The translations under genes were made by a program, and so were the position numbers. Below, one piece after another: positions 3,779-57,000 of a DNA stretch of 64,000 nucleotides. Within the stretch, counting starts at the first letter, position 1, and each line of letters begins with the position of its first letter. Source of the DNA: Chlorophyllum brunneum (lineage: Eukaryota > Basidiomycota > Agaricomycetes > Agaricales > Agaricaceae); the NCBI GenBank assembly GCA_963576785.1, contig OY756145.1:1054001-1118000 (forward strand), given 5' to 3'. A model generated the notes under the pieces. It saw only the letters and a program-made list of their open reading frames with translations. It was not told where the DNA came from and searched no databases.

Positions 3779-5199
3779 CCTGTACACAGAGCCCCTTGCA
3801 GGCAAACTCCTAGCAGTCCAGAGATGGGGGTTTTGAGACAGCATGTGCCCATAGAATACCCAGCATGTTCCCAGGCTCCCATATTGGTGTCGCATCTGGC
3901 TATGTTACAGGGACTTTGCCCCTCTCTCCTAAGAGGTAAAGCCTTTAGCTTGGGTGGACACCCCACTACTGAGAGAGTGCGGTATCCCTGAGGACCGGCC
4001 TGCTGTTTGCTTGAGGCATCCTTCCTATATGGTGCATGGACGGGATCTCACTGCATAACTGTGTACATTGCCACCCCAAATCCAGACTACTTACATGGTA
4101 CCAACTTAAATGGGTACACTCCGTTGTTGACAGAGACCCATCGATGGAGGATCTAGACCTCTTGAGCTGGGCCGCTCCTTCTCAGTAACCGGGCAGCTTT
4201 TTTCAGTGTGCTCCCAGTAAACGGCCTGCTATAGTCCACTAGTTGGGCAGGCAGAGGCCACAAAGGCGTACCTCCAAGGCACAACCCCTGGACTAGCTTC
4301 CCGTTCCCCTGCAGCTGCTTTCGCTATGCCCTACCCCCAGAGGAGGCAACTTGTCTTTGGGCACAGATCCACATGCTAATACTGGTAGGGATCTCTGTCT
4401 CGCAGGGGGTGCTACCAGGGTGGTGTTCACATTGGATCACATAAGCAACCCGCAGAATGGGTTACTAAGCAATCCATGGAACGAGTACCAATCAACCCGA
4501 GTTTCCCCATGTCAACCTGCATCCGCCCAGTGTCCTGGAGTTTGGTGTATCCCTACTAACAACCAGGCACTACCCCCAGAGGGGTTCCCAAAGGCATGGT
4601 GACACTGGTGGGGGGTGGCCTGTCCTTTCAGTCAGCTTGTTTTCACCTTCATACCCCCTGTTACCATCCCTTATCCTTTCGGGTGCAACAGTGCAGCTTT
4701 TTTCAGTGTGCTCCCCACCAACGTGCAAGCACAATTGGGGGTAGGCCCAGACATCTGTCATCAGCCAGGATAACCCAGCCTTGAGATGCTAGCCGGACTT
4801 GAGCTACAGCAGGGGTTAAAACCACCATGCAAACCCTGTACGGGACTACAACTCCATTGGATTGATAGAAGGGCCGCCACCACTGGCAACCCAGTGAGTG
4901 CAAGCGAGCAAGGTGGCCAGTATCCCAGCCTTTAAGACCCTTTACCAAGGGGCTGCCCCATCGATCTGTGTGTATAGGCATTAGTCCAATGAACAGTAGG
5001 GATATACCCATCTTTAATCGCCTTTACCAAGGGTGTGCCACCTATTGACCAAGTAACGTTGCCACATAGACTACCCCCCTACAGCCAGCAAAGGCTCAGA
5101 AAAGACCCAGGCCCATGAGAGAGAGTCCAGGAGACAAAAGGTGCAATGGGGAAAGGCAGTAGAAAAAGTAGTGGTAGTTGTAACAAGTCAAGGAGCAAT
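3779..5199 (-). repeat. N-module copy N1 (non-coding 5' module)
   Basis: About 1.42 kb without a conserved ORF; the small ORFs here are not kept between copies. Read on the minus strand it begins ATTGCTCCTTGACTTG (5' end, 5199) and ends in the block gcaaggggctc followed by a variant of catgtatgg (3779). Two boxes containing CTGAAAAAAGC lie about 500 bp apart (near 4203 and 4704). The same sequence recurs near 5662, 19,925, 23,468, 23,898, 32,381 and 49,920-52,534. It forms a long inverted repeat with the copy at 5662-7115. Confidence 0.85.
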
Positions 5200-5661
5200 G
5201 CTAATATGTCCTTCCTGGGGCTGGACCATGTTACATGGTCCCACCTCAAATATATTGTCATTGATGAAGATTGCTTGACGGTATTCCTGCACTTGGCCAA
5301 TGCCTGCCTCATGATGGGTCACTGGCCCTGCAGCTTCAAGGAGTTGCTCTTGGTTATCATTCCAAAACCAGGAAAGCCCTCCTACTCTACTCCCAAGGCA
5401 TTCAGACCTATTGTCCTCCTGAACATGCTTGGTAAATTGGTTGAGAAAATGCTTTCCAACTGAATCCAGTTTGATGCCATTAAGCATGACATCTTTCATC
5501 CCCATCAATTTGGAGGCATTCACCAATGTTCCACTGAGGACACTGGGTTGTTCCTTACCCACCTGGTCCATACTGGGTGGGCTAAGGGTCTCAAGATGAG
5601 CATTGTCACCTTTGACATTGCTCAGTTCTTTCCCTCCTTGAACCATGAGATGCTCATGGCC
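5200..5661 (+). mobile_element. LINE-A reverse transcriptase fragment between two N-modules
   Basis: A 462 bp piece of LINE-A ORF2. It covers the N-terminal part of reverse transcriptase (GLDHVTWSHLKYIV, HWPCSFKELLLVIIPKPGKPSYS, FRPIVLLNMLGKLVEKMLSN) to just past motif A (FDIAQFFPSLNHEM). One TGA stop (5461) replaces a CGA or CAA codon of sister copies. It has no poly(A) tail and no 3' end of its own. Both ends abut the 5' ends of oppositely oriented N-modules, so it is the spacer of a large palindrome. It is probably a remnant of an older LINE-A into which the neighbours inserted. Confidence 0.85.
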
Positions 5662-7115
5662 ATTGCTCCTTGATTTGTTACCACCACCACCACTTTTTCC
5701 ACTTCCTTTCCCCATTGCACCTTTTGTCTCCTGGGCTCTCTCTCATGGGCCTGGGTCTTTTCTGAGCCTTTGCTGGCTGTAGGGGGGCAGTCCATGTGGT
5801 AACGTTACTTGGTCAATAGGTGGCACACCCTTGGTAAAGGTGATTAAAGATGGGTATATCCCTACTGTTCATTGGACTGATGCCTATACACACAGATCAA
5901 TGGGGCAGCCCCTTGGTAAAGGGTCTTAAAGGCTGGGATACTGGCCATCTTGCTTGCTTGTACTCACTGGGTTGTCAGTAGTAGTGGCTCTTCTAGTAAT
6001 TTGATGGATTTGCAGTCCCATATAGGGTTCGCATGTGGGTTTTCACCCCTGCTGTAGCTCAAGTCCAGCTAGCATCTCGAGGCTGGATTATCCTGGCTGG
6101 CTGATGACAGACATCCGGGCCCACCCCCAATCATGCTTGCACGTTAGTGGGGAGTGTGCTGAAAAAAGCCACCCTGCCACACCCAAAAGGAACTGAAAGG
6201 ATAGGGGACAATAAGAGAGGGTATTGAGGTGACAACAAGCTGACTGCAAGGACAGGCCACCCCCCCACCAGTGTCACCATGTTTGGACCCCTTCGGAGGT
6301 AGTGCCTGGTTGTTAGTAGGGATCAGCCAAACTCCAGGACAGTGGGTGGGTGCAGGTTGACTTAGGGAAACTTGGGTTAATTGGTACCTGTTCCATGGAA
6401 TGCTTAGTAATCCGTTCCATGGGTTGCTTAGGTAATCCAATGTGAACACCACCCCAGTAGCACCCCCTGCGAGATGGAGATCCCCATCAGTATTAGCATG
6501 TGGATCTGTGCCCTAAGACAAGTTGCCTCCTAGGAGGTTGGGCATAGCAAAAGCGGCTGTGGGGAAATGGGAAGCTAGTCCAGAGGTTGCACCTTGGAGG
6601 GGGTGCCTAGGGTCTAGAAGCATCTGGGACTTACACTTCCCTGCCCAACTAGTGGACCATAGCAGGTTGTCTACTGGGAGTATGCTGAAAAAAGCTACCC
6701 AGTTGCCAAGAAGGGGCAGCCTGGCTTAAGAGATCTAAATTCTCTGTCGATGAGTCTCCGCCAACAATGGAGTGTACCCATTTAAGTTGATACCACGTAA
6801 GTGATCTGGATTTGGGATAGCAGTGTGTGCAGCCAAGCAGTGGGATCCCATCTGTGCACTGTATAGGAAGACTGCCTCAAGCAAACGGCAGACCAGTCCT
6901 CAGGGATACCGTGCCTTCCCAGTAGCAGGGTAGTCGCCCAAGCTGAAGGCTTTACCTCTTAGGAGGGAGGGGCAAAGTCCCTGCAACATAGCTGGATGCG
7001 ACACTAATATGGGAGCCTGGGAACATGCTGGGCATTCTACAGGCACACAATGTCTCAAGACCCTCGTCTCTGGGTTGCTAAGAGTTTTAAGCTTGCAAAG
7101 GGCTCTGTGTATGGG
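5662..7115 (+). repeat. N-module copy N2
   Basis: Plus-strand copy of the non-coding module, starting ATTGCTCCTTGATTTG and ending ggctctgtgtatggg. It retains a few CpG sites that other copies have lost (for example taacgtta at about 5810). The two CTGAAAAAAGC boxes are near 6160 and 6687. There is no conserved reading frame, and small ORFs such as the one at 6523-6729 are not shared with sister copies. Confidence 0.85.
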
Positions 7116-10100
7116 CGGAGTGGGACCCTGAGGTTCTGCATCATCAAATGACAGCTCATAAGCTCATGGAGATGAGCTGCAATCTTGGTCTCAATTTGGT
7201 TATGCCAACCAGCCTGGGTCTGACGTTTGTTTCCCACAACCCAGATCTTTGCCCATCGGTGATTGATCTGGTGTTCATCTCTTCTTCTGATGCATCAAGG
7301 ACTTTTTCTTATTGGGATGTATCTCTCCAGGGTACTTTGGATCATGTTCCATTAACCATTATCCTTCCCATTGCTCCTGTTGACATCAGGATCATCAAAG
7401 CTGTCCTCCCAAAGGGCTGCGATGAAGAGGAGGCCTTCTTGGGACACATCATTGATGAGGTGACCGATCTTCATGATTGTCCCTCTCTGGAATCCCTGGA
7501 ACAAGTGGATGCCTTGGCATCTGCTGTGGCTGAAGCATTCTCTGATGTGTGGACCCACCACTCAAAGGAGATCCGGATTACTTGCTGCACTCATCCCTGG
7601 TGGGATGAGGCATGCTCTACTTTCTTCTCCAGGTATCAGGGCTCTCATAGTCGTGGTGACTGGGGGAACTTTAGGCATGCTTATACAGCCACCAAACAAC
7701 AATTCTTCAACTCTAAGATTGAAGAGATTGCTTCTACTAACAAGCAACCCTGAGACCTTATGGAGTGGGTCAAGGTGTGCAAGTTACCCCCCTATGAGGC
7801 TATCTAGTTTAACAGATAGCCTTGTCATGGTATGGACTCCCTCTGGGATGCCCTCCACTCAATGTACAACTCTGCTACTGATCAGCGGTGCGACACATCT
7901 GTCCTCGACCCCCTCCCTGACCTTCCAGTCAGGAAGTGGGCCCCTTTTTCGGCATTGGAGTTTATGGAGGCTTTGTTCTCCTACTCTAATATGTCCTCTC
8001 CGGAGCCGGACCATGTTACTTGGTCCCACCTCAAGTACATTGTCATCAATGAAGATTGTTTGACGGTGTTCCTGCACTTGGCCAATGCCTGCCTTATAGT
8101 GGGTCACTAGCTCCGCAGCTTCAAGGAGTCACTCTCAGTTATCATTCCAAAACTGGGGAAGCTCTCCTACTCTACCCCCAAGGCATTCAGGCCTATTGTC
8201 CTCCTGAACACACTTAGTAAACTGGTTGAGAAAATGCTTTCCAACCAAATCCAGTTTGATGCCATTAGACATGACATCTTTCATCCCCATCAACTCGGAG
8301 GCATCCGCCAGCGTTCCACTGAGGACGCCGGGTTGTTCCTTACCCACCTGGTTTGTGCTGGGTGGGCTAAAGGTCTCAAGACAAGGGTGGTCACTTTTGA
8401 CATTGCTCAGTTTTTCCCTCTTTGAACCATGAGATACTTATGGCCATACTCACCAAGCAGGGGTTCCTACTGAATGTGAGGACCTTTTTTGCTTCGTACT
8501 TGGTGGGCCGTTCCACTGTTTATACATGGAACAGCTTCTCCTCTGATCCCCGGAGTGCGGATGTGAGCATTGGACAGGGCTCTGCCATGTCCCCAGCCCT
8601 CTCTGGCCTCTATATCACCCCTGTTATGAAGGTTTTTGACCTATGGATTACTTCCCCTGGGAGTACTCTGTTATCGTATGTCGACAACAGGACCGTTGTC
8701 ACCCAGGCTAAAACCTGGGATGAGAACTTGGATACTCTCAAGGGGGCATACATTATTCTCTTCAATCTCTTTGTAGCATTCGCACTAGTCATGGAGCATG
8801 ACAAGTCCGAGCTTTTCCACTTCTTCAGAAAGCCTGGGAACATTAATCCCCCCCTTGACTTGGGCTTCAGTCCATTCACAGGGAACACTCCTCTTCACCC
8901 TAAGACCTACTGGAGGTACCTGGACTTTTACTTTGACTGTGCCCTGAATTTTCAGGAGCATATTCAACATTACTTTACTAAGGCTCTCTCCACTATGAAA
9001 GCAATGGGGATGCTTGGCAACTCCTCCTGTGGTCTGACCCCTAAGCAGAAGTGGCTCCTCTTCAGGTTGTGTGTTATGCCTATTGCAACATATGGCTTCC
9101 GTCTGCGGCATTTTGACAAGGCTTGGTGTAAGGACCTTCTCAAATCCCTCAATACTATGCAATGCAAGGCTGCATTGTGGATCACCAGTGTATTCCACAC
9201 CTCCCTCTCTAGTGGCACCGAAACCCTCACTGGTCTCATCCCTGTCCACCTCCATCTGAAGAAACTGGCCTCAAAAGTGAACTACCATCTTGCCATCCTC
9301 TCCAATACCCACCCCCTCCAATCCCTCCTCGATCGTCTGAATGCCAAGGGTGCCCCCCCACACCCCCTCTCCATCTCCCTCTTGTCTGACTGTCTAGTCA
9401 GGTAGGTCAAGGGTTCCCTTATGGAAGCTGTTTCTGCACTCCCATCCCTCACTGAACAGTTTGACCCCTGCTCCACAGTGGCTCAGCCTGGTCACCATCT
9501 CTTGGACCATTTTGCGGCCCAGGTATCCTTCCATGACTCTCCTCATTCTTGTAATGAGAGAGCTATGCATATGAGGCATCTGAACAGCACTTTGGAACAT
9601 GCTAATACTGATCCTCAGGTTCTCACTGTGGTAACAGACACGAGTCTGCCATTGTGGGGGGAATTCCAGGCAGTTTCTGCTACCCAGATCTACTGGTCAG
9701 GCCAGTGTGTCTTTCAGACAAGACATGTGGCAGGCTGAGTGACAGCTCCTGATGTGGAACTGTACACTATCTGGATCACAGTTGGGAAGGCTACCAGTCT
9801 CTCTGACTGTGACTCCATTGTTCTGTTCACTGACTCTCTTGGCTTAGCCAGGAGGGCAGTGGACCCCTCCATTCACTCTGGTCAGGCTCATTCACTTGCT
9901 GTCTGTAATACTCTTATAGAGTGGTTCAAAGGTCACCCCAAACACTCTCTTCATGTCTGGCACACTTACTCTTTGGAGAGGTGGGCCATTCATGGTACCA
10001 TACACCAGTACTGTACCAAACTTCAGGTCACTATGGGTTCCCGTCCGCAAACCTCCCTTGACTCCCTTCGTTAGAGGGTCATCAAATCATGCCAGGATGC

Positions 10101-10491
10101 CTGGATCACTTGATTCCAGGATTTTACTTACTCAGGAAGCCAGTTTATGGCTCTTGAAGGGTGTAACGGTAAGTCTCTCCAGCCCACTTACCTCAATAGA
10201 GGTTCATGGCTGCCTTCTGCCGCAGCGGAGTCCAACTCACTGTCTGCCCACATGTGTAGAGTTATACTCAACCATGCACCTATCAGGGCCTACAGGTCTT
10301 GGTTCTTCCAGGATGAACCATTCTGGTGTCCATATGGGACTCCCTTCGAGTCTCGTGTGCATATTCTTACCAACCGCAGTCGGTTTGACTCCTCTAGGGG
10401 GTACCCAGCTATGCCAGGTGCCCTCATCAAGTTCTTGAAAGCAAACCCTCAGGCATTTGCTTTCCCATCCATTCCTCAGGGAATTGTATAA
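7116..10491 (+). pseudogene. LINE-A ORF2, 5'-truncated and decayed
   Basis: Domains in order: endonuclease C-terminal half (7116-7400; HNPDLCPSVIDLVFIS, LDHVPLTI), linker with HPWWDEAC (about 7600), reverse transcriptase (about 7990-9000; SVIIPKLGKLSYS, motif A FDIAQFFPL at 8398, motif B GQGSAMSPALSGLY at 8575, motif C YVDN at 8678), thumb, RNase H (about 9620-9900; D in VVTDTSLPL, E in DVELYT, D in LFTDSLGLA) and C-terminal domain (10,147-10,491; CPYGTPFESRVHIL). Stops include TGA 7751, TAG 9403, TGA 9739 and TAG 10,072. TGA 10,111-10,113 is different: it is present in every LINE-A copy that spans the site. Not active. Confidence 0.88.
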
Positions 10492-11041
10492 CTGGCTTAG
10501 GGTAGGTGGGTTATTGTCTGGCACTGGAGAACTCCGGTGAAAGTCTGGTGAAGACCTTTGGAGTTTTATGAATGGAGTTGTCCTCTTTGGCAACTAGGTG
10601 TGGTGAAAACACCGATAGCCACACAAATGGTGTGGCCTATTACTCTGGCAAGGGTGACCATGGCCGGGGGGATGACTCCTAGTAAGAAGAACTCTGGGGG
10701 CTAGTAGCAGGACTGGTAACTAGGGGTTTCTGTTGCTAGGCATTTATGGTGAACTAACACTTACTGACTGGGCCTGGTCTCTGGACTGGGTTGCTGGTTG
10801 GGGGACCTTCCTACCCACTTGCCTCCTCTGGTGTCCACTCCCCTCACCCTTTGGGCTCAGGAGTAGGACACAATTCCTCCTACCATTGGTTTTGGGCAAT
10901 GGTACTTTTGCTTGGTAGGGCATAATTACTGCATTCTCCATAGATATCCGCTAGTCTACCCCTTTTTGTATTCCAGCCACAGGCTGTGTTCGAGCACCAC
11001 ATTATAAATTGGCCTTAGGCTGCGATATAAACAAAAAAAAA
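10492..11041 (+). other. LINE-A 3' untranslated region and poly(A)
   Basis: About 550 bp after the ORF2 stop, closely matched at 30,835-31,375 and, on the minus strand, at 11,939-12,490, 50,074-50,640, 54,160-54,708 and 62,198-62,320. It contains no ORF. The last block, ttggccttaggc followed by an A-tract, marks the 3' terminus where target-primed reverse transcription starts. Confidence 0.8.
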
Positions 11042-11938
11042 CTCCCACAAGCGGTCTGTTAGACTTGAATGCAAATGCAGCAGGGTTGCACCCAAGAAAA
11101 GATACCAGCTGGTCAATAGAGACCAGCAGGCCACGACATCTCTTGTACAATGGACAAGAGCACAAGATATGAGTGCGGGTCTCCAGAGGAGCCCCACACT
11201 CACAGCCAATAGGCTCTAGAGGATGGAACTGGGAGCAGTACTCGCCGGTCAGTGCATATCCAAGAATGGCATAATTTGCTCTCATTGCAATAGACTGAGA
11301 GGGAAAAGAAGGAAGCCATAAACCTCTGTGGAGGTACGTTGGCTGTAAAACTTGTTCTTACTATCCTTGAGAACAAGGAAGTTAGAACCGCAATAAGAGG
11401 AGTCCTGGAAGGTAACCTTCCAGGCCTTCTGAATGGTAGCTATGTTGAGTTTACACAGTGAGTCAATAGACATTGCTGGACTACATCCAGTAGTGACCTG
11501 AAGGTTGGTGGCAAATAAATGCATATCCTGATGAATGGACCATTTCACTGAAGACAGAACAGACCAGAAAGTGAGGGAATGGTTGGGACAATCCCTGAAC
11601 TATTCCAACAAGAGACAACAAACAGCTAGGGAATGTCCCTGACCAGAATGTACAGATGGGTCAAGAGCTTGTTTGGCAGAACCAACCAAGTCTGTAAAGA
11701 CTACGATGTGTACAGCTTCAGAGACTGCTGCAGCAGTTCCCAAAGTCATACAAATAGCGAAAAGTTCAGCATCTGGGGCTGTAACCTTGCCAACTGGGTA
11801 ATGCGATGCATAGAGCAAACACGTCCCCCTATAAATGTAGGCAGCTGAGACTGCCTGGAAATCTCCAACCAATGGCAGACTTGCATCCATTGCTACATAG
11901 ACAACCTGTCTGTCCTCACAATACTCCTGAAGAGTATC
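11042..11938 (-). mobile_element. LINE-B RNase H/C-terminal fragment
   Basis: Minus-strand LINE-B piece from QEYCEDRQVVYVAMDASLPL (RNase H first Asp) through DAELFAICMTLG and VFTDLVGSAKQAL to the C-terminal Cys/His domain (CECGAPLETRTHILCSC, about 11,190). It ends at the last codons of ORF2 and lacks the 3'UTR. Its left end abuts the LINE-A poly(A) at 11,041; its right end is interrupted by the poly(T) of the next LINE-A (11,939). The missing 3'UTR occurs in opposite orientation at 18,767, with the break at the same sequence (cgcttgtgggag). Confidence 0.82.
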
Positions 11939-19096: not shown

Positions 19097-19246
19097 TGAC
19101 TAATGTTGCCACCTGGACTGCTCCCCTACAGCCAGCAAAGGCTCAGAAAAGACATGGGCCCATGAGAGAGAGCCTGAGAAACAAATGGTGCAATAAGGAA
19201 AGGGAAGTGAAAAAGTAATGGTGGTGGTAACAAGTCAAGGAGCAAT
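19097..19246 (-). repeat. N-module 5' arm, truncated
   Basis: First 150 bp of the N-module on the minus strand, from the 5' end (19,246) to ...ttagtcagt (19,097), where LINE-B poly(A) abuts. The truncation point is within a base or two of the site at which a LINE-A inserted into another N-module (50,073). Confidence 0.85.
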
Positions 19247-19920
19247 GAAGAGCTTGCTTGGCAGAACCAATAGAGTCTGTAAAGACTGCAATATGTACAG
19301 CCTCAGAAACTGCTGCAACAGTTCCCAAAGCCATACAAATGGTGAAAAGTTCAGTATCTGGGGCTGTAACCTTGCCAGCTGGGTGACACAATGCATGAAG
19401 CAGATGTGTCCCCCTATAAATATGGGTAGCCAAAACTGCCTGGTAGTCCCCAATCAACAGCAGACTTGCATCCATTGCTGCATAGACAACCTGTCTGTCC
19501 TCACAATACTCACAAAGAGTATTATCAAGCAAATCCACTTGACAACCCACTGGGTTTCCACTGAGTGAGGTACCATACATTTTAAAAGTCACCTGGGCTG
19601 TGTAGCAATCCAGGAGACAAGAACCTGGTGACACTTTGAGCACAAACAGCTTGAACATCTCCATTAACTCTGGCAAACACGAGTTTGCCTCAATGACCAG
19701 CCCCTTGACCTTAACCGCCTGAGTGGAGGTCATGAGGGCAATTGATCTGGGGTGTGGAACACATCCTACAGTTTACTGATATCCCATAATGGAACAAATG
19801 GGGTGATTCTCAGAAAGAGTGGCTACCCTGTGGACTGTATAGGTAGCCAGTTTCTTGAGATGAAGATGGATGGGGATGAGGCCAGCTCCCATACATGGAG
19901 CCCTTGCAGGCAAACTCCCA
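19247..19920 (-). mobile_element. LINE-B RNase H fragment capped by the N-module 3' end
   Basis: Minus strand: the last ~30 bp of the N-module (19,888-19,918; gcctgcaagggctccatgta) is joined to LINE-B at the codons for LAGLIPIHLH and runs to DSIGSAKQAL (19,247). RNase H residues are visible: D in YAAMDASLLL, E in DTELFTICMAL, D in VFTDSIGSA. There is no 3' end or poly(A). It abuts 5' ends of N-modules on both sides, so this is another N-module palindrome with a LINE spacer. Confidence 0.8.
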
Positions 19921-19924
19921 CATC

Positions 19925-26942: not shown

Positions 26943-26949
26943 GAGGTGT

Positions 26950-41706: not shown

Positions 41707-41752
41707 GAGGTGCGTCGAGTGTAGTGATCTCTTGTAACATGAGGTTTGTTGT

Positions 41753-44700
41753 TCATAATTGTCGCTTTTTACCCCCCCTTTTTATAGGTTTTGTCCTCGA
41801 AATTTTGTCTAAAAATTCTTGAACTGCCTCCTTAGTGTTTCCTAACTCTGACTCATTCTCCCATGTGTCTTCTTTGGAGGTATACCCTTTCCAGTGTACT
41901 AGGAATTGATTTCGTCGTCCTCTTTTGCAATGTCGTCTACCTCATATTGCTCTTCATTGTTGATGATCTCGGGCATCGGTGGTAGTGGGGTGTGCTGGCT
42001 GTCAAACTCGGGTTTTCGATAGGGGGAGAGGAGTCTGCTGTTAAACACATCGTGTATTGCCCATGTTTCAGGTAATTCCAATTGGTAGCTTGTTTCGCCT
42101 ATTCTTGTTTTTATCCTGAATGGTCCATATCATTTGTGATCCAGCTTTTTGGTTGGTCTCGTTGTCCTGATATTACTTGCTTCGAGCCAAACTTGTTCTC
42201 CTGGGGCGTATTCGTGTTCTGGCTTAGTGCTGTTGCATTTCTCCATTTGTTCCTAACTGCATTGTAACATTTTTGTCACTTCTTGTCACATGTTTTGTAA
42301 CTCCTGTATTCATTCCGTGATTGCAGGTGCTTTGGTGATACTCATTATATCTCCTTTCCAAGGGTATCATCCATAAACTATTTCGAATGGTGAATATCCA
42401 GTAGCTATGTGGGTTTTGTCATTGTATTGGAATTCTGCTGTGGCTAGCCATTTTTTCCAATTGTCTTGAGCATGGTTTATTACGTTTCTGAGGTATGTTT
42501 CAACCTCCTGGTTGATGTGCTCTGTTTGACCGTCGGTTTGTGGATGGTATGCCATGGATAAGTTTTGCTGGATTCTTGTTGCTTGGCATAGTTCTGCCAT
42601 GAATTTGGATGCGAATTGTGGGCCTTGGTCACTGATAATTCTTCAGGGTATTCCGTGTGTTCTCCATATGTCATCTCAATAGATATCTCCTAGCTCCTTG
42701 GACGTTAAGGTGGTGTTGACTGCACGTAATCTGATCATTTTGCTGAAACGATCGACTATGACAAGTATTGCATCATATCCTTCTGACTCTGGTAGCGGTC
42801 CTATCATGTCAATTAATATCTCCTCCCAAGGTTCCGCTGGTGTCGGTAGCAGATGGAGATGTGTTGTTGGTCTTATTCAGAGTATTTTGTTTCGTTGGCA
42901 TGCTTCACATCCCCTGATGTATCATTTGACGTTGTTGTGCATCTGGGGCTACCAATAACTCCATTTAAGGAGTTCAATCATTCGATGTTGTCCTGGATGT
43001 CCTACATCAGTTTTGTTGTGGTGTTGTTGTAGTATTTCTTGTTGTATTTGGTTGTTGGGTGGGACATATATTCTTTCTTCAAACATCAGTACTCCATCTG
43101 TTTCCCATATCTCCTTTGGTTGCTTCTCTTTTTCTTTTAGCCACTGTGTTTCCCTTCTTGTTTCCTTTTGTAGTTGGTGTTTCAGATCTTCTTCTCCTGA
43201 GATTTCCCAGATTTGTCAGATTGTGGTGATCATACTGTCATCAAATAAGTGGTCAGGTAGTAAGGTGATGTCAGTGTTGTCTTGAGTAGTGTCTGTTTTC
43301 GTTAGTCTTGATAAGATGTTGGCTTTTGTGTTGGTTGTTCCGGGGATATGTTTCAGTATGTAATGGTATTCTTGTAGCTCCATCTGCCACCTCGCTTGTC
43401 ATCCTGTAAGTTGCTGTGGTTTTCGGAAGTATTCTAGGTTTTTGTGATCGGTCCATATTTCGAAGGGTTCATCTGCATTGAGTAAATATTGCCTCCAGGT
43501 CTTGATTGCTTCTCAAATGGCGAGTAACTCTTTATCATAGATTTGGTAGTTGTGTTCTGCAGGTGTCATTGTTCTTGAATGGAATGTGATTGGGCGCCAG
43601 TGTTCTTCTTGTTTTTGCGATAATACTGCTCCTACTCCATATCCTGATGCGTCTACTTCTACTCTGTATTGACCCTTGTCCTGTGGCATTGCTAATACCA
43701 GTTCGCTTGTAATCTTTTCTTTGATCCTTTCGAAGGCTTGTTACTGTTGTTCCTTCCATACCCACTGCATATCTTTTTTCTTCAACTTGTGTAATGGGGC
43801 TACTATGTTGCTGAAGTCATGAATGAATCGTCGGTAGAAGTTTGCAAATCCTAGGAATTTTTCGACATCTTTTAGAGATTTGGGTATTGGCCATTCTTTC
43901 ACCACTTTCACTTTCTCCTCCTCCATTTTAATGCTGCCTTGTCCAACCACAAATCCTAGTATAGGTATTTCTTTTGCATCGAATATGCATTTCGATCTTT
44001 TGAAATATAGTTGGTGTTTCGCCGCAATGTCAAGAAATCGTTTTGTTCTGTCCTCAAGTTCCTGTTGTGTGGTCCCCGGTATAACAAAATCGTCCATGTA
44101 GTTGACAACTGCTCCTTCATGTAGCATTTCCCAAAAGACAGTGTTCATCATCCTTTGGAATGTTGCTGGCGAGTTACTCATTCCAAAAAACATGACTATT
44201 GGTTCGAATAGTCCGTTGTTCATTACGAATGCTGCTTTCCATTCATCACCTTCCCTTAACCTAACGTTATTGTATCCCCAGATGATGTCGAGTTTGTTAA
44301 AGACTTTCGCGTCTTTGAGTTTGTCGATGACTTCGCTTATGAGTGGAAGTGGCATTTTGTCCTTGATCGTGTGTTCATTTAGCTTCTTGTAGTCTTGTAC
44401 CAGTCGTTTGGTTCCATCTTTCTTGGGTATGAAGAAGCATGGTGTAGCATAGAGGAATTGTGATGGTTGAATTTGTCCTGAGGCAATATTTTCATCGAGA
44501 AATGTTTGCAGTTCTTGTTTCTCCATTAATATCATTAGGTAGACCTTGGACTGTAATACTGGTGGTGCGTCTTCTGTCAGGTTTATTTCATGGTCCCATA
44601 TCGTATGTTCCAGTAGTTTGTCGAAGTTTTTCTTGTTGAATAGGTGCGTATATGGCTGCAGGTATGCCGGTAGGTCCTCTGGGTTTGTTTGATCGGTTTT

Positions 44701-45225
44701 CTTTTCCTCTATGTGTTCTTTTAGCATGCGTATTCTTTCGTTGAACCATATATCATTGTGGTGTGTGGTGCAGTCCTTCGGGCATCTATTGAAGCGTACT
44801 ATGTTATTTGTCCAGTCGATTTCTGGGTTGTGCTTGACTAGCCAGTCGTGTCCGAGATATAGGTCCATGCTTTCTAGTTGTGTTACCATTGCTTCGATTT
44901 CTTCCATGTGTTTGCCATTGCTTAATACCAGTTGTGCCGTATCTGTTATTTCTCCCTTCTTGTTTTCGGTTCCGTTGGCATTGATTACTCGTATTGGGGT
45001 TTTGAGGGGTTTGGTCGTGATCTGTTCTTCTTCTACTACCCTCTGTGCTATGCATGTGTGTGTACATCCAAAATCCACCAATGTGGTGATTTGCTTGGGT
45101 CCTTTCTTTGTTCTGATCGTTGAATTGAGGAGAAGTTCACGCATTGAGTTTCATTTTTGCAGGATCACATATTGTCTATTGTAACATAAAACAGAAACTC
45201 TAGGTTTATTGGCTCACAGGTTTGC
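41753..45225 (-). pseudogene. pol: Chromovirus Pol (PR-RT-RNase H-IN-chromodomain), broken
   Basis: The longest open part is 467 codons (45,144-43,741). Protease: the active-site triad reads DFG, not D-S/T-G (LVDFGCTHTCI), with LYLGHDWL downstream. RT: LPLISEVIDKL, LDIIWGYNNVRL, intact YMDD (44,095), FLGFANFYRRFI. Stop TAA at 43,741. Beyond it: RNase H (VEVDASGYGVGAVLSQ, about 43,650; stop near 43,513), integrase zinc region (HPGQHRMIELL, CEACQRN), catalytic core (IDMIGPLPES, SDQGPQFAS, YHPQTDGQTE) and a chromodomain near 41,880-41,960 (EEQYEVDDI ... FLVHWKGY ... EDTWE) with a frameshift near 41,930. Upstream of 45,144 the same frame continues through two TGA stops (CYNRQYVILQK*NS). Enzymatically dead. 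Confidence 0.92.
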
Positions 45226-45227
45226 AC

Positions 45228-46466
45228 CTACTTGGAGCCTTCGACAAAATCCTCTTTTGTCTCTTCTTCTATCTCCTCAGTAACCTCTCTGATGTGTGCT
45301 TTCTTTGGTGATTTACAGTTCTTCAAGATGTGGCCTTGTTTGCCACAATTATAGCACGTTATTTTGGTGTATGCTATCTTCGTCTTCTTGCAGCAGTATT
45401 TGGCAATATGCCCATAGAGGTTACAGTTAAAACATCTTGGTTTGCTGTTCTGATTGGTGTCTGCCCTCTGTCTACCAATTTCCATTGGTTGTCCTCTGCC
45501 TCCATAAGTGACTCCTGTGCTTGTTCTGACATCTCCTCGTGTGGTGTCTGTTGTTTCGTACCCCTGTCCTACTGCGAGGATGGTGTTTCTCCATTTATTG
45601 TATGTATCTGGGATTGAGGCTACTGGATAGCCTACAATAGTTTGGATAATGTCTGCTCTGGTGTGTTGTTTGAGGAGGAATATGGCATGCACATCGTCAG
45701 TTCCTGCTTGGGTCTTCAATGCTTTGAACTCTATCAAGAAGTCTGCAGTGTTCCTCTTTCCCTGTTTGAACAACTCAATTTCCCCTTCTGCTATTGCTTT
45801 TCTATTCCCCAAGGAGAAGGTAGCTACCATCTCCTTTGCAAAGTCATCGAATGCCGGTGTTTTCTTGTCTTGAATCATTTGTAACTTGGCATTAGCATAG
45901 GGACCTGCAAGTCCTCCTTTCATTCGAGCTAATATTCCAATTATCTTTTGCTCATTATTGTCGATTTTGTTGAAGAGTGTCCATAAGGACATCGCTCTCC
46001 ACCAATCATCAAACTTGGTTCTATCTCCATTGAAATATCCTGGTTCTGGGGCTAGGTTCTTTGGGAAGTTGATTTTATCAGCCATTTCTGATTCTGTTTC
46101 TGGTTCACTATGTTTGTTTTCATAGGTCTTGGTGACTTCTATGTCGGATGTGGTTTCGGCGATTTCTGTATTGAATGGGGTCTCGGTGACTTCTATGTTG
46201 GATGTGGCTTCGGCGATTTCTGTATCGAATGGGGTCTTGGTGACTTCTATGTCAAATGTGGTCTCAGCAACTTCTGTGTTGAATAGGGTCTTGAAAAGAG
46301 CTGTGTCTTCTTCTATACTGTGGTTGGATTTCTGCCGTTTGAGGCCTTCAGGGATTTCTGGTTCTGTTCGTTGTTTGGATCCAGTGGTTACTGGTGATCC
46401 CTGGATATCTGTTGGTCTCGGAGCTCTTGGTCTTCTTGGTGTTCTCGATGAGCTACTGCTGCTCAT
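45228..46466 (-). CDS. gag: Chromovirus Gag (412 aa, intact frame)
   Basis: Structural protein that packages element RNA into cytoplasmic particles. Seen: Ser-rich N-terminus; three 18-residue tandem repeats (DNA 46,131-46,292; TEVAETTFDIEVTKTPF type); Gag core from about residue 130 (NFPKNLAPEPGYFNGDRTKFDDWW); two zinc knuckles near the C-terminus, CFNCNLYGHIAKYC and CYNCGKQGHILKNC, both with full CX2CX4HX4C spacing; and an acidic tail with EEIEEETKEDF. ATG 46,464-46,466, stop TAG 45,228-45,230. Pol follows in the -1 frame, suggesting frameshifted expression. The frame is uninterrupted despite damage elsewhere in the element. Confidence 0.9.
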   Translation of the reverse strand: MSSSSSSRTPRRPRAPRPTDIQGSPVTTGSKQRTEPEIPEGLKRQKSNHSIEEDTALFKTLFNTEVAETTFDIEVTKTPFDTEIAEATSNIEVTETPFNTEIAETTSDIEVTKTYENKHSEPETESEMADKINFPKNLAPEPGYFNGDRTKFDDWWRAMSLWTLFNKIDNNEQKIIGILARMKGGLAGPYANAKLQMIQDKKTPAFDDFAKEMVATFSLGNRKAIAEGEIELFKQGKRNTADFLIEFKALKTQAGTDDVHAIFLLKQHTRADIIQTIVGYPVASIPDTYNKWRNTILAVGQGYETTDTTRGDVRTSTGVTYGGRGQPMEIGRQRADTNQNSKPRCFNCNLYGHIAKYCCKKTKIAYTKITCYNCGKQGHILKNCKSPKKAHIREVTEEIEEETKEDFVEGSK

Positions 46467-49919: not shown

Positions 49920-52900
49920 AATCACTCCTTGACTTGTTACCACTACCATTATTTTTCCACTTCCCTTTCCTCGTTGCACCATTCATTTCTCGGGCTCTCT
50001 CTCATGGGCCCATGTCTTTTCTGAGCCTTTGCTGGCTGTAGGGGGGTGGTCCAGGTGGCAACATTAGTCAGTCTTTGTTTTTTTTTTTTTTTTAAAATCA
50101 TGGCCTAAGGCCAATTTATTGTGTGGTGCTCGCACATAGCCTGCGGCTGGAATACAAATGAGTACTCTAGCGGGTATCTATGGAGAAGGTGGTAATTACA
50201 CCCTACCAAGCAAAAGTACCGTTGCCCAAAACCAATGGTAGGAAGAGTTACATCCTACTCCCAAGCCCAGAGGGCAAGGGGAGTGGACACCAGAGGAGGC
50301 AAGTGGGTAGGGAGGTCCCCCAACCAGTGACCCAGTCCGGAGACCAGGCCTGGTCAGTAAGTGTTAATTCACTGTAAATGCCCAGCACCAGAAACCCCCA
50401 GTTACTGGTCCCGCTACTAGCCCCTGGAGTTCTTCTTACTAGGCGTCATCCCCCTCGGCCATGGTCACCCCTGCCAGAGTAATGGGCCACACCATTTGTG
50501 TGGCTATTGGCATCTTCACCACACCTAGTCACCAAAGGGGACAACTCTGCTCATAAAACTCCAAAGGTCTTCGCCGGACTTCCACCGGAGTTCTCTGGCA
50601 CTGGACAATAACCCACCTACCCTAAGCCAGTTATCCAATTCCCTGAGGAATGGATGGGAAAGCGAATGCCTGAGGGTTTCTTTCAAAAACTTGATGAGAG
50701 CACCCAGTGTAGCTGGGTACCCCCTAGAGGAGTCAAACCTTGGACAAGAGGTAAGAATATGCACACAAGACTTGAAGGGAGCTCTGCATGGACACCAGAA
50801 TGGTTCATCCTGGAAGAACCAAGACCTGTAGGCCCCGATAGGCACATGGTTGAGTATAACTCTATACATATGGGCAGACAGTGAGTTGGACTCTGCTGTG
50901 GTGGAAGGCAGCCATGAACCTCCATTAAGGTAGGTGGGCTGGAGGGGCTTACCGTTGCGCCCTTCGAGAGCCATAAACTGGCTTTCCAAGTAAGTAGGAT
51001 CCTGGAATCAAGTGATCCAGGCATCCTGGCAGGATTTGACAACCTTCTGATGAAGGGAGTCAAGGGAGGTTTGTGGATGGGAACCCGCAGAGACCCGAAG
51101 CTCAGTACAGTACTGATGTACCATATCATAAATGGCCCACTTCTCTAAAGAGTATGTGTGCCAGACATGAAGGGAGCATTCAGGGTAACCCCCAAACCAC
51201 TCCATAAGGGTGTTGCACACGGCAAGCGAGTAAGCCTAACCAATGTTAGTCAGTCATTGGGTGGCATGCCCTTAGTGAAGGTGATTAAAGGTGGGCATAT
51301 CCCTACTGTTCAACTGACTAATACCTATATACACAGATCGACAGGATAGCCCCTTGGTAAAGGGTCTTAAAGGCTAGAGTACTGGCCACCTTGCTCGCTT
51401 GCACTCACTGGGTCACCAGTGGTGGCAGCCCTTCTATTAATCCAATGGAGTTACAGTCCCATATAGGGTTTGCATGGTCGTTTTAACCTCTGCTGCAGCT
51501 CAAGTCTGGCTAGCTTCTTGAGGCTGGGTTATCCTGGCTGATGACGGATGTTCAGGCCTACCCCTAATTGTGCTTGCACGTTGGTGGGGAGCACACTGAA
51601 AAAAGCTGCCCTGTCATACCCAAAAAGGACCAAAAGAATAAGGGACAGTAATAGGGGGTATGAAGGTGAAAACAAGCCAACCAAAAGGACAGGCCACCCC
51701 CCACCAGTGTCACTATGCCTTCAGGAACCTCTTTGGAAGTAGTACCTGGTCATTAATAGGGATATGCCAAACTCCAGGGCACTGGGTGGGTTTGGGTTAA
51801 CTTGGGGAAACTTGGGTTGATTGGCACCTGTTTCACAGAATGCTTAAGTAATCCATTCCACGGGTTGCTTAGGTAATCCAATGTGAACACCACCCTGGTA
51901 GCACCCCCTGTGAGATAGAGATCCCCACCAGTATTAGCATGTGGATTCATACCCAAAGACAAGTCACCTCCTCTGGGGGTAGGGCATAGCAAACATGGCT
52001 GTGGGGGAATGGAAAGCTAGTCCAGGGGTTGCACCTTGGAGGTATGCCTTTGTGGCCTTTGCCTGCCCAACTAGTGGACCGTAGTGGGCCATTTACTGGG
52101 AGTATGCTGAAAAAAGCCACCTGGTTACTGAGAAGGAGTGGCCTGGCTTGAGAGGTCTAGATTCTCCATCAATGGGTCTCTGCCAACAACAGAGTTTACC
52201 TGTTTAGGTTGATACCATGTAAGTAGTCTGGATTTGGGGTGGCAATATGCACAGTCAAGCAGTGAGATCCTGTCTGTGTACTATATAGGAAGGATGCCTC
52301 AAGCAAATGGCAGGCTGGTCCTCAGGGATACCATGCTCTCTCAGTAGCAGGGTGTCTGCCCAAGCTAAAGGCTTTACCTCTTAGGAGGGAGGGGCAAAGT
52401 CCCTGCAACATGGCTGGATGCAACACCAATATGGGAGCCTGGGAACATACTGGGCATTCTATGGGTACATGTTGTCTCAAGACCCCTGTCTCTGGGTTGC
52501 TAGGAGTTTGCCTGCAAGAGACTCCATGTATAGGTCCCTTAGAGCCTATTGGCTGCAAGTGTAGGGCTTCTCTGGAGATCTGCACTCATATCTTGTACTC
52601 TTTTCCATTGTACAAGAGATGTCATGGCCTGCTAGTCTCCATCGACCAGCTGGTATCTTTTCTTGGGTGCAACCCTGCTACATTTGCATTCAAGTCCAAC
52701 AGACTACTTACGGGTATTGGATAACACAACATGGCCCCTGCTAGCTTCCCATGTCTTTGACATGTGTAGAAGTTAATTGCAAATTGATTGCATACTCTCC
52801 TTAGGGAGGGGAGGCTAGGGGTCACTCATCATTTTGGTCTAGGATTCATGCATTTGTGTATGTTTCCGCGACCATTCACCCAGACTGCCTGTCGGCAGTC

Positions 52901-52997
52901 TAGTTTGGCCAGAGGAGAGCCTATCTTCGATTACCTTCTATTATATATATATGTCATAGTAGATACAGGTGGACTGCAATCATGCACTACCTTAAAC

Positions 52998-53028
<31 letters not shown>

Positions 53029-54159: not shown

Positions 54160-56515
54160 TTTTTTTTTTTTTTATTTTTATTCATGGCCTAAGGCCAATT
54201 TATTACACGGCGCTCGAACACAGCCCACGGCCGGAATACAAAGAGTAAACTAGCAGGTATCTACGGAGACAGTGGTAACTACGTCCTACCAAGCATAAGT
54301 ACCATTGCCCAAGACCAATGGTAGGAGAAATTGCGTCCTACTCCCAAGCCCGAAGGGCAAGGGGAGTGGACGCCAGAGGAGGCAAGTGGGCAGGGAGGTC
54401 CCCCAACCAGCGACCCAGCCCGAAGACCAGGCCCAGTCAGTAAGTGTCAGTTCACCACAAATGCCCAGCAATAGAAACTCCCAGTTACCGGTCTACTAGC
54501 CCCCAAAGTTCTTCTTACTGAGAGTCATCCCCCCGGCCACAGTCACCCTTGCCAGAGTAATCGGCCGCACCATTTGTGTGGCTATCGGCGTCTTCACCAT
54601 ACCTAGTCGCTGAAGGGAACAACTCCATTCATAAAACTCCAAGAGTCTTCACCGGACTTCCACTGGAGTTCTCCGGTGCCGGACAATAACCCACCTACCC
54701 TAAGCCAGTTATCCAATTCCCTGGGGAATGGATGGGAAAGCAAACGCCTGAGGGTTTGCCTTCAAGAACTTGACAAGGGCACCCGGCGTGGCAGGGTACC
54801 CCTGAGAGGTGTCAAACCGACTACAGTTGGTAAGAATATGCACACGAGACTCGAAAGGAGCCCCGCATGGACACCAGAATGGTTCATCCTGGAAGAACCG
54901 AGACCTATAGGCCCCAATAGGCGCATGGTTGAGTATAACCCTACACATGCGGGCAGACAGCAAGTTGGACTCTGCTGCGGCAAAAGGCAGCCATGACCCT
55001 CCATGGAGGTAAGTGGGCTGGAGGGGCTTACTGTTATGCCCTTCGAGAGCCATGAACTGGCTACCCGAGTAAGTAGGATCCTGGAATCAAGTGATCCAGG
55101 AATCCTGGCAGGATTTGACAACCTTCCGACGAAGGGAGTCAAGGGAGGTTTGCAGACAGGAACCCGCAGCGACCTGAAGTTCGGTGCAGTACTGGTGTAC
55201 AGTACCATGAATGGCCCACTTCTCCGAAGAGTAGGTGTGCCAGATGTGAATGGAGCATTCAGGGTGACCCTCAAACCACTCCATAAGAGCGTTACACACA
55301 GCAAGCGAGTGAAGCTGGCCAGAGTGAACAGAGGGGTCCACCGCTCTCTTGGCAGAACCAAGGGCGTCAGTGAACAAGACAATGGAGTCGCAGTCAGGAA
55401 GGCCAGTGGCCTTTCCAATCGTGATCCGGATAGTGTACAGCTCCGCATCAGGAGCCGTCACTCGACCTGCTGCATGTCTCGTCTGGAAGACACGCCGGCC
55501 TGACCGGTAGATATGGGCAGTGGAGACTGCCTGGAACTCCCCCCACAGCGGTAGACTAGCGTCCGTGGCCATAGTGAGAACTCGAGAATCGGCATTGGCA
55601 CGTTCTAAGGTGCCATTCAGATGCCTTATATGTACAGCCCTCTCGTCACGAGAACGAGGAGAGTCGTGGAAGAAGACTTGGGCCGCAAAGCGGTCCAGGA
55701 GACGGTGACCAGGCTGAGCCACTGCAGAGCAGGGGTCAAACTGCTCAGTAAGAGATGGGAGCATGGAAGTGGCTTCCATAAGGGAACCTTTGACTTGTCT
55801 GACGAGATGGTCAGACAAAAGGGAGATGGAGAGAGGGTGTGGGGGGGCACCCTTGGCATTCGGACGATCGAGGAGGGATCGGAGAGGGTGAGTATCGGAG
55901 AGGGTGGAGAGATGGTAGTTCGCTCTTGAGGCCAACTTCTTCAGATGGAGGTGGACGGGGATGAGGCCAGCGAGGGCTTCAGTGCCGCCAGAGGGGGAGG
56001 TGCGGAACGCACCGGTGATCCACAACACAGCCTTGCATTGCATAGTGTTTAGGGATTTGAGGAGGCCCTTACACCGAGCCTTATCAAAATACCACAGATG
56101 GAAGCCATACGTCGCGATAGGCATGACACATGACCTGAAGAGGAGCCGCTTCTGCTTGGGGGTCAGACTGCGGGAGGAGTTACCCAGCATCCCCATCACT
56201 TTCACGGTGGAGAGGGCTTTGGTAGAATAATGTCGAACATGTTCCTGAAAATTCAGGGCACGATCAAAGTAAAAGCCCAGGTACCTCCAATAGGTCTTAG
56301 GGCGAAGAGGAGTGTCCCCTGTGAATGGACCGAAGCCCAAGTCGAGGGGGGGATTGATGTCTCCAGGCTTTCTGGAGAAGTGGAAAAGCTTGGACTTGTC
56401 ATGCTCCATGACAAGCGCAAATGCTACAAAAAGATTAAAGAGAACAATGTATGCCCCCTTGAGGGTATCCAAGTTCTTGTCCCAGGTCTTAGCCTGGGCA
56501 ATGATGGTACCGTCA
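54160..56515 (-). mobile_element. LINE-A joined to diverged N-module (young copy A6)
   Basis: LINE-A 3'UTR, C-terminal domain, RNase H and thumb on the minus strand, 5'-joined at 56,515 to the end of a diverged N-module (N', 56,516 on) right at the RT motif C region (DGTIIAQAK). It retains many CpG sites and long open frames, so it is younger than the left-hand copies. Poly(T) at 54,160-54,180 is interrupted by single A bases. Confidence 0.88.
54709..56472 (-). pseudogene. LINE-A ORF2 C-terminal half with shared internal TGA
   Basis: The frame is open for 461 codons (56,472-55,087): RT thumb (MLGNSSRSLTPKQKRLLF, YGFHLWYFDKARCKGLL) and RNase H with its acidic residues (D in MATDASLPL, E in DAELYTIRI, D in LFTDALGSA) and a DSLRRKVVKSCQ helix. 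TGA 55,087-55,089 then interrupts it, and the same frame reopens without damage through FQDP and the C-terminal Cys/His motif CPCGAPFESRVHILTNC to TAA at 54,709. The TGA is at the homologous codon in every LINE-A copy that spans it, so it may be read through. The 5' part of ORF2 is missing. Confidence 0.85.
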
Positions 56516-57000
56516 CCCGTCTACGGAGCCCCTTGAGGGGTCTCTTACCACCAGCCTTAGCCAATGGCGACGTGGAATCAACTTGAGCTGGAACCTGGCT
56601 ATTTTTCCTGTACCAGGCCAACCAATGTAGGATTTAGTCCTCTTGAGCCAGGTGAGCATTCTCTGATAACTGGCGGCTTTTTTCAGCACGCCCCGGTACA
56701 TCACCTGCTACGGCCCACAACTTCACCCAAGCACTACCCTGGAGTTGCTTCCCATTCCTCAGCAGCCGGTTCGGTATGCCTTACGGTCCAGATCCCCGTG
56801 CTTAACTGTCTGAGATCTACACCTTGCAGACACTGCTACCAGATTGGTCCTGAGGTTATTTTAAGCCAACTTAGTCAGTATCCTCAATCTGGAGATTGGG
56901 TTATGTCTACTAACTACCGAAACTATGCCAAAGCGGACCGGGAGGGGTATCCTATCTCGGCGGCTTTTTTCAGCACGCCCCGAGTCAGACTGTTATCATG
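56516..57000 (-). repeat. Diverged N-module (N')
   Basis: Related to the N-module by its end (gcaaggggctccatgtatgg there, caaggggctccgtagacgg here), the ctcttgagc block, and two boxes GGCGTGCTGAAAAAAGCCGCC (minus strand) near 56,670-56,700 and 56,960-56,985, about 290 bp apart. Elsewhere it differs strongly, so it is a separate subfamily. It keeps CpG sites. No conserved ORF. The left limit of similarity is uncertain. Confidence 0.65.

Follow-up and report, generated by a model that had tools for sequence, protein, structure and literature searches.

How does a non-coding module come to lie, nearly always with the same 3′ end, against many different points of LINEs? The question is raised by a 64-kb stretch of the Chlorophyllum brunneum genome (the window; 64,000 nucleotides, analysed as a whole), for which an earlier note listed seven joints with a shared module terminus and proposed that reverse transcriptase, while copying LINE RNA, had jumped to the 3′ end of an independent N RNA. 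All seven joints are present, within about 1 nt of where they had been placed, and in 7/7 the LINE follows, in sense, 3′ of the module (Table 1). The partners differ from joint to joint as described, in agreement with the LINE coordinates (B ~1105, A 2594, B 4667, B 5385, B ~5571, B ~5746 and A 4151). Pfam matched endonuclease and reverse transcriptase domains in these LINEs; we take B ~1105 to lie in ORF1, B 4667 in the thumb, B 5385 in the RNase H region, B ~5571 and ~5746 at C-terminal sites and A 4151 in the reverse transcriptase near motif C. Six of the joints belong to one module, N, but the one at 56,515/56,516, previously read as a diverged form of it, is part of another one, N3. At 19,887/19,888 the joint is real, but N is reduced there to its last ~31 bp because a second N-LINE unit adjoins.

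Table 1 Modules and LINE parts in the 64-kb window.
Feature	Position	Strand
LINE-B part of the 3,779-5,200 chimera, from 3778 down, past the window edge	1-3,778	minus
N, near full length (N 1-1428), fused to LINE-B (B ~1105, presumably ORF1)	3,779-5,200	minus
N, full length	5,661-7,115	plus
LINE-A 2594 (endonuclease) to 3′ end, fused to N 5,661-7,115	7,116-11,042	plus
N fragment (N 1-149)	19,099-19,247	minus
LINE-B 4667-5305, part of joint 19,887/19,888	19,248-19,887	minus
N, last ~31 bp, fused to LINE-B 4667	19,888-19,918	minus
N, full length, reference query	19,924-21,353	plus
LINE-B 5385 to 3′ end, fused to N 19,924-21,353	21,354-22,201	plus
Older N, left piece (N 667-1097), broken by younger N-LINE-A unit	23,468-23,897	plus
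Younger N, early end at N ~981 (N-short)	23,896-24,892	plus
LINE-A, full length, joined to N-short	24,893-31,378	plus
Older N, right piece (N 1082-1430)	31,374-31,712	plus
LINE-B ~5571 to 3′ end, fused to older N	31,713-32,380	plus
N fragment (N 1184-1412)	32,381-32,609	minus
N, first piece (N 6-149)	49,925-50,068	plus
LINE-A inserted in N 49,925-52,534	50,075-51,242	minus
N, remaining piece (N 140-1427)	51,241-52,534	plus
LINE-B ~5746 to 3′ end, fused to N ending at 52,534	52,535-53,028	plus
LINE-A ~4151 to 3′ end, fused to N3	54,163-56,515	minus
N3, second module, 889 bp, with tRNA-Leu-like head and shared 3′ terminus	56,516-57,404	minus

N is a non-coding unit of ~1,430 bp with both ends fixed. 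In similarity searches with 40 candidates scored per search, so that counts are lower bounds, 34 of the 44 matches listed start within the first 8 nt of N. All of 30/30 loci show the 5′ start, and 28 of these 30 also show the canonical 3′ end; exceptional 3′ ends lie at N 981 (two loci), N 1353 (one) and N 1398 (one). The common 5′ end recurs in four window modules (3,779-5,200, 5,661-7,115, 19,924-21,353 and 49,925-52,534). In two young copies (L010 and L028), the longest stop-free stretch on either strand is at most 161 codons. We infer that the 5′ part of each chimera is a copy of a transcript. One N1 and one N2 copy lack a pol III A/B box pair and a tRNA call (ARAGORN, 0/2 N loci), and Rfam gave no match for the modules searched. 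Several other readings of N were discarded. The inverted 31-bp end at 19,888, which might suggest a TIR DNA transposon, is a remnant of another chimera, and apparent further 3′ ends at 950, 1083 and 1419 are interruptions by inserted LINE-B. Unusual RNA stability was dropped as support (z -0.5 for a 989-nt N1 piece and -2.7 for N3, 20 shuffles each; -1.1 to +1.0 for five short pieces), as was covariation at the 3′ stem, where one compensatory change in 5 distinct rows was matched by 217/500 shuffles.

The second module has a different head. While N3 and N have their 3′ terminus and a repeated motif in common, the N3 head resembles tRNA-Leu(UAA), which ARAGORN called in 5/6 N3 loci submitted. 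The window copy gave no tRNA call, and the N3 head had no Rfam tRNA match. The A and B boxes are 61 nt apart in 6/6 copies (11/20,000 shuffles). tRNA-derived SINEs combine a tRNA-like head carrying these boxes with LINE machinery and a fixed LINE-like or poly(A) tail. N3 shares with them the tRNA-Leu(UAA)-like head, with an internal pol III promoter predicted from sequence, and the LINE machinery. Unlike them, it has no fixed 3′ tail of its own for starting reverse transcription, and its 3′ part is instead a variable stretch of a real LINE. There are two modules in three subfamilies (N1, N2 and N3) with one 3′ terminus.

We then tabulated module ends across the genome. The shared 20-nt terminus occurs at 81 places with at most one mismatch, against none for the reversed pattern. 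This census is complete for that pattern and threshold; mutated module ends exist beyond it, and joins total some hundred in this genome. All 81 places were read and yield 78 distinct sequences, since 75 nt coincide within three pairs of places (L007/L009, L027/L080 and L145/L147), each of which was counted once. N3 accounts for 40 of the 78. Sense LINE sequence (LINE-A, LINE-B or LINE-C) follows 76 of these ends, and unassigned sequence follows two. By BLAST, LINE-A (22) or LINE-B (52) begins in sense within 25 nt of the terminus in 74/78; the remainder comprise one LINE-C, one LINE-A 56 nt on and the two unassigned ends. The LINE-A and LINE-B joints fall at 61 distinct positions; the earlier note had named many LINE joints per N end as a pattern that would support its reading. 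Its suggestion that one module uses more than one LINE family is real: N has two partner families and N3 at least three. The LINE-C partner, at L119, was placed by comparison with LINE-B. Pfam gave nothing useful for naming the partners at L119, L146 and L151, and the L146 partner did not match the LINE-A protein. No solo, unfused module copy occurs among the 78 distinct canonical ends of the 14-contig assembly, which leaves the source of free module RNA unexplained.

Target-site duplications flank module and LINE together. Duplications of 13-16 bp (at most one mismatch) enclose module, LINE and poly(A) in 9/15 loci, compared with 0/210 cross-pairs, and were not found in the other 6/15. The 15 come from 19 loci with a called LINE 3′ end, leaving out L012 (end at the stretch edge), L027 and w7115 (called end not the LINE 3′ end) and w52534 (window copy). 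The last has a 14-bp duplication with two mismatches, and the target LINE-B around it stops on the left at B 3145 and resumes at 53,030 (B 3133). The N3-LINE-C unit at L119 is flanked by a duplication with a 15-bp exact core. A tripartite unit, N3-N(233-)-LINE-B(4474-), is enclosed by a 13-bp duplication; its ends were read, and the middles of N3 and LINE-B were judged by fitting spacing. We dropped a four-part chimera at L023 (N3-LINE-B-N-LINE-B with an outer duplication), because nested insertion and loss between direct repeats would give the same anatomy. Head-to-head modules at L124 and L125 and a truncated N at L126, each read on one side, are taken as nested insertions. Nesting also occurs in the window, where the two older N pieces form one N-LINE-B unit split by the younger N-LINE-A unit; the right piece repeats 23,884-23,897 as a target-site duplication, about 12 bp long and containing one mismatch.

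Fixed module ends, variable joints in several LINE families, whole-chimera duplications, the tripartite unit and the unequal histories of the two parts (below) together make a jump of the LINE reverse transcriptase to the 3′ terminus of an independent N or N3 RNA, similar to MINE/WEIRD, the probable origin of these chimeras and the best fit to the sequence evidence, as the earlier note had proposed. In this model, N and N3 would each be produced as a non-coding transcript of its own whose 5′ and 3′ ends are defined. The LINE reverse transcriptase, engaged in target-primed reverse transcription of a LINE RNA at a nick, would stop at a variable point, jump to the ...CGGG 3′ terminus of an N or N3 RNA close by and copy this RNA up to its 5′ end. 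Integration of the chimeric cDNA would then create a target-site duplication of about 13-16 bp, and two jumps may sometimes produce N3-N-LINE-B.

The alternative that survives best, although unlikely, is that a ligase of the tRNA-ligase type first links N or N3 RNA, through its 3′ end, to the 5′ ends of fragmented LINE RNA, and that the product then undergoes ordinary target-primed reverse transcription. Ligation gives the same DNA anatomy as a jump and, in the sections used here of a report on mammalian LINE-1 chimeras, has been proposed for those (PMC13174262). The first LINE base (+1) is a pyrimidine at 53 of the 61 positions against a background of 55%, which could reflect an RNA cleavage preference, as ligation would allow. 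On the other hand, explaining the tripartite unit would take two ligations plus a cut of N at 233, and nothing in the data requires ligation.

A further alternative is that a small number of N-LINE fusions, each formed a single time, have since transposed as units. In the chimera pairs L086/L092, L121/L143 and L027/L080, the joint is indeed common and the sequences nearly match (over the 60 nt shown of the LINE for the first two pairs). These cases, together with the three place pairs identical over 75 nt, indicate that part of the chimeras may stem from re-copying or duplication and not from a fresh joining. As a general origin this is very improbable. There are 61 distinct LINE positions, and the N parts are more alike than the LINE parts at the same loci: 28 N pairs from eight young loci are 94.5-98.4% identical (0-6 transversions over ~1,430 bp), while 21 LINE-B pairs from seven of these eight are 85.4-94.8% identical (2-13 transversions over ~343 bp). 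Even in pairs with the same joint, the LINE parts have diverged over ~470 bp (89.3% identity for L007/L009 and 85.7% for L005/L006). Near-identical N parts beside more diverged LINE-B parts, even at same-base joints, indicate that joining recurs de novo. The histories of the parts contradict re-mobilisation as the main route, and a minor contribution from it is likely.

Scarcely credible is the reading of N as the normal 5′ end of a LINE, with joints produced by internal deletion or splicing. It draws on the resemblance between the starts of N and LINE-A (CATCGCTYCTT...), and in the window N-short does meet a full LINE-A 5′ end at ~24,893. Nevertheless, no N is joined in front of LINE-A 5′ ends at 19/20 loci, the twentieth being that window joint, which we reject as a normal 5′UTR on these counts. 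Likewise, N matched 0/8 LINE-B upstream regions fetched. A complete LINE in which N continues into 5′UTR and ORF1, the case against the jump named in the earlier note, was looked for in these 20 LINE-A 5′ ends and eight LINE-B upstream regions and not found. The partners, moreover, span two LINE families for N and at least three for N3, and the LINE side follows no AG rule (AG at 2/61 distinct positions). Just as implausible are DNA transposons or SINEs that landed beside LINEs by chance, to which the tRNA-like N3 head lends a SINE-like look, since duplications flank module and LINE together and the sense start of the LINE coincides with, or lies close to, the final module base in 74/78.

Returning to the reverse transcriptase jump, we infer from these patterns that it is the joining step, that the free RNAs of N and N3 terminate in CGGG, and that both modules are parasites kept by this route rather than host RNAs. 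A more tentative proposal, which we put somewhat below even chances, is that N and N3 are tail-less SINE-like parasites, not captured host RNAs, that spread only as a second template. The terminus CAAGGGRCTCCGTNNRCGGG, common to modules with differing heads, may then be a dedicated landing end for the LINE reverse transcriptase. Signals within the module may determine the 3′ end of the RNA, given that each canonical end read in the genome runs on into other sequence, nearly always a different LINE stretch.

Chimeras of this kind are already known as MINE elements of Magnaporthe, and the common anatomy bears out their choice as the closest parallel. As described in the sections of the report drawn on here (PMC2104539), MINE consist of a full-length copy of a non-coding RNA (WEIRD) 5′ of a 5′-truncated LINE (MGL). 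Across 33 chimeras there are 28 different LINE sites, the target sites are duplicated over 10-20 bp, a single tripartite chimera has a duplication of 14 bp, and WEIRD was not found on its own. Both systems have variable LINE sites, whole-unit duplications, one tripartite unit and no solo module; the general MINE-type features, a fixed-end non-coding 5′ part, a sense LINE at variable points and one duplication around the chimera, recur here (the last in 9/15 loci). This likeness is one of anatomy, with WEIRD and MGL known to us by description. In that account MINE involves one RNA and one LINE, plus Mg-SINE, whereas here two related modules in three subfamilies share one 3′ terminus and are joined to LINEs of at least three families, and one of the modules has a tRNA-Leu-like head. 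The MINE jump consensus GCC*A/U fits 0/61 positions, judged on reference LINE copies rather than true donors, and the +1 pyrimidine prevails instead. The references are single copies (LINE-A, window 24,893-31,378; LINE-B, contig C1), so the -1 side of the joints is approximate. The Magnaporthe authors attribute the missing solo copy to an incomplete genome (PMC2104539, in the same sections); here, in a 14-contig assembly, none was found either.

Mammalian LINE-1 chimeras likewise carry non-coding RNA 5′ of the LINE; according to the sections of the report cited above, U6, other small RNAs and Alu take part, and sense cases are ascribed to template switch or ligation (PMC13174262). Those RNAs are host RNAs or Alu, whereas here 78/78 canonical module ends are fused and no free-standing gene was found. 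A comparable jump, from finished cDNA to a new RNA 3′ end, is described in vitro for an R2-type reverse transcriptase in the relevant part of another report (PMC8857657). The likeness would be that of a non-LTR reverse transcriptase, purified from silkworm in the R2 case and seen here through DNA alone. Joining of SINE or passenger RNA to LINE cDNA has usually been argued from scarce fossils; with some hundred joins in one genome, acceptor choice, LINE stop sites and the birth of SINE-LINE fusions become directly testable in this fungus. Named relatives of the LINE-A protein are from agaric fungi, and, counted on the window map, 5 of the 11 5′-truncated LINEs with both ends judgeable carry a module.

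All seven joints between the N-module terminus and LINE sequence claimed in the earlier note are real in the window. The sequence 5′ of these joints forms the terminal part of a ~1,430-bp unit (N) whose 5′ end is also fixed, at CATCGCTCCTTGACTTGTTACC... in BLAST. Of the 44 own-genome matches listed, a lower bound, 34 start no further in than nucleotide 8 of N. Stop-free stretches in two young copies reach 161 codons (locus L028, minus strand) and at most 114 codons (L010), and N is treated here as putatively non-coding. Its subfamilies, N1 and N2, are ~91–92% identical and differ most near the 3′ end. Among the aligned copies L003–L010, L019 and L025–L028, differences appear to be mainly CpG to TpG/CpA, which we read as the expectation for methylated or RIP-like silenced repeats.

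The joint at 56,516, previously taken for a diverged form of the same module, is genuine, but it belongs to a separate unit, N3. Similarity between N and N3 is limited to short blocks: 96 bp at 74%, the 3′ terminus, and a motif, GTGCTGAAAAAAGC, of which each module carries two copies. The genome contains 202 occurrences of the motif form GYRTGCTGAAAAAAGC, versus none for the control, and many of the first 100 places listed are paired at the N3 spacing of 287 nt or the N spacing of about 510 nt. ARAGORN places a tRNA-Leu(UAA) at the head of N3 at five of six N3 loci and neither of two N loci, and makes no such call on the window N3 copy; A and B boxes stand 61 nt apart in all six N3 copies versus 11 of 20,000 shuffled heads. 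An Rfam search returned no match for either module.

Coordinates of the second module, the LTR element and the joints at an early N end
Feature	Location	Strand	Length	Partner or content
N3	window 56,516–57,404	minus	889 bp	
LTR element	window ~40777–46466, between LINE-B copies			protease + RT (Pfam)
N-981 joint	window 24,893			full LINE-A 5′ end
N-981 joint	contig C13			LINE-A ~2596

A genome search with the terminus pattern CAAGGGRCTCCGTNNRCGGG (at most one mismatch) finds 81 places, and the reversed pattern none; three pairs are the same over 75 nt, leaving 78 distinct sequences (17 N1, 21 N2 and 40 N3). By BLAST, with matches starting no more than 25 nt past the terminus, these continue into sense LINE-A (22), sense LINE-B (52) or LINE-C (1), the last defined at L119, where the tail past N3 shares 38–41% identity with the LINE-B C-terminus over 37 and 56 residues. 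At L111, LINE-A begins 56 nt downstream of the terminus. The proposal that one module type joins more than one LINE family holds, although in the census N1/N2 are fused mainly to LINE-B (34 joints, versus 4 to LINE-A), whereas N3 joints divide evenly (18 to each; Fisher p 0.0003). A wider set of N ends (71 rows, minus L095 with no end, L022 and L023 with ends inside N, and the N3 joint at 56,516) has a nearby sense LINE match at a loose threshold in 67 of 67 cases, many too mutated for the census pattern. Neither Pfam nor BLASTP placed the tails at L146 and L151, which we read as one sequence at two positions. At L118, L114, L146 and L151, N3 thus joins sequences not assigned to LINE-A, -B or -C; in translation L118 resembles L114 and L146 resembles L151, hinting at further partner families.

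The LINE-A and LINE-B joints occupy 61 distinct positions, ranging from 347 to 6,041. At 53 of them the LINE side begins with C or T, against a background of 55% (binomial p 1e-7); the preceding base on the reference LINE copies is G at five. The GCC*A/U rule of MINE, the Magnaporthe chimera of 5′ WEIRD RNA and 3′ MGL LINE, fits none of the 61 and a splice-like AG two. Micro-homology to the module GGG is absent in 69 of 74 joints.

The two halves of the chimeras have different histories. N parts of eight young N1 loci (28 pairs) are 94.5–98.4% identical, with 0–6 transversions over ~1,430 bp, versus 85.4–94.8% and 2–13 transversions over ~343 bp for the LINE-B ends at seven of those loci (21 pairs). 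Even at common joints the LINE parts diverge, with 89.3% identity over ~470 bp for L007 and L009 (B 5750) and 85.7% for L005 and L006 (B 5746). This unequal divergence argues against descent from one old fusion and for the joining of many different LINE-B sources to an N source that was itself nearly uniform. Re-copying or duplication of chimeras may also occur, since L086/L092 and L121/L143 have near-identical LINE sequence at common joints.

Module and LINE entered together as a single insertion. Target-site duplications flank the pair, directly 5′ of the module and directly 3′ of the LINE poly(A), and under a fixed rule (13–16 bp, at most one mismatch) are found at 9 of 15 loci versus 0 of 210 cross-pairs; they are absent under this rule at L001, L003, L005, L014, L016 and L023, with a weak 12-bp match at L014 under a looser scan. 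The window N unit at 49,925 splits a target LINE-B whose left part stops at 3145 and right part resumes at 3133. An exact repeat of 15 bp flanks the N3–LINE-C unit at L119, in what we read as a gag gene. On contig C4, a tripartite unit inserted in LINE-A with a 13-bp duplication consists of N3 from position 4, N from 233 and LINE-B from 4474, each running to its end, and then poly(A), an order read from the outer parts of N3 and LINE-B; N3 and N are each joined at the canonical last base.

The putative gag gene at L119 seems related to the window LTR element, which we read as Ty3 type. Inside an outer 17-bp duplication with two mismatches, L023:182–3905 reads N3–LINE-B(5464–5888)–N(1–1398)–LINE-B(5226–end), either a multi-jump insertion or a nested insertion trimmed by recombination. 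At window 19888–19923 and L002:1465–1497 (the latter with a 13-bp duplication), a chimera adjoins the same point, about N 1400, of an older inverted N, a possible preferred target.

This anatomy is what end-to-end template jumping would predict, as described for a non-LTR reverse transcriptase in vitro (PMC8857657). Copying of a first, LINE RNA would stop at a variable point and resume at the exact 3′ end of a second, module RNA, through to a full copy. RNA ligation followed by normal insertion, proposed for mammalian chimeras (PMC13174262), would yield identical DNA. The source of free module RNA is a puzzle: because 78 of 78 canonical module ends are fused, it must be either unassembled or lost, or else consist of fused copies with transcripts that stop or are cleaved at ...CGGG. 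WEIRD in Magnaporthe likewise has no solo copy, which the authors blame on an incomplete genome (PMC2104539). MINE, named earlier as the nearest parallel, is indeed the only fungal counterpart we found in the open-access (PMC) literature. It differs from the system here, with two modules, a common acceptor end, one tRNA head and at least three LINE families; we found no description in that literature of two modules sharing an acceptor end across at least three LINE families. Since the terminus is common to N1, N2 and N3, selection may have kept the module 3′ end. Near the 3′ end, GGAGY...RCTCC may form a stem-loop, with pairing in 90% of cells over five distinct rows but without statistical support.

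That N is a normal LINE 5′ end, the case that would refute the interpretation in the earlier note, is rejected, as the LINE-A and LINE-B 5′ ends examined lack N except at the window N-short joint. Of twenty LINE-A copies beginning at or close to CATCGCTTCTTTTCC..., 19 have no N directly upstream, the twentieth being that joint; at L038 an inverted N lies 66 bp away. None of eight LINE-B upstream regions matched N, and at least six show by eye the LINE-B 5′ terminus (...GCTTCTTTATCC... or a near variant). N, LINE-A and LINE-B share similar starts (CATCGCTYCTT or part thereof), which may reflect a common type of transcription start. An early N end at 981 (...GTGGACCRTAG), the start of the block common to N3, occurs at two loci, the only ones found by an exact-pattern search that misses about a quarter of ends plus mutated cases. 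N ends at 1353 at L022 and at 1398 at L023, there with an 11-bp overlap with LINE-B.

The window, from a 38.9-Mb assembly of 14 contigs, contains nested LINE-A and LINE-B, both with endonuclease and reverse transcriptase domains (Pfam), plus modules. The LINE-A protein has 77 matches, whose sources, where named, are all agaric fungi (Coprinellus, Leucoagaricus, Cyclocybe, Psilocybe, Agaricus and others), which makes an agaric the most probable host. Among the places listed, N, N3, LINE-A and LINE-B fall mostly in one cluster per contig (for example C7 ~1.05–1.37 Mb, C11 ~0.75–0.91 Mb, C4 ~2.43–2.62 Mb and C6 ~2.58–2.75 Mb), which suggests candidate centromeres; exceptions are two groups on C8 (~0.14–0.17 and ~1.94–1.96 Mb) and a few distant N3 (C1 ~4.58 Mb, C6 ~0.04 Mb). 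ARAGORN also calls a tRNA-Met at window 36928–37001, in a gap between LINE-B pieces.
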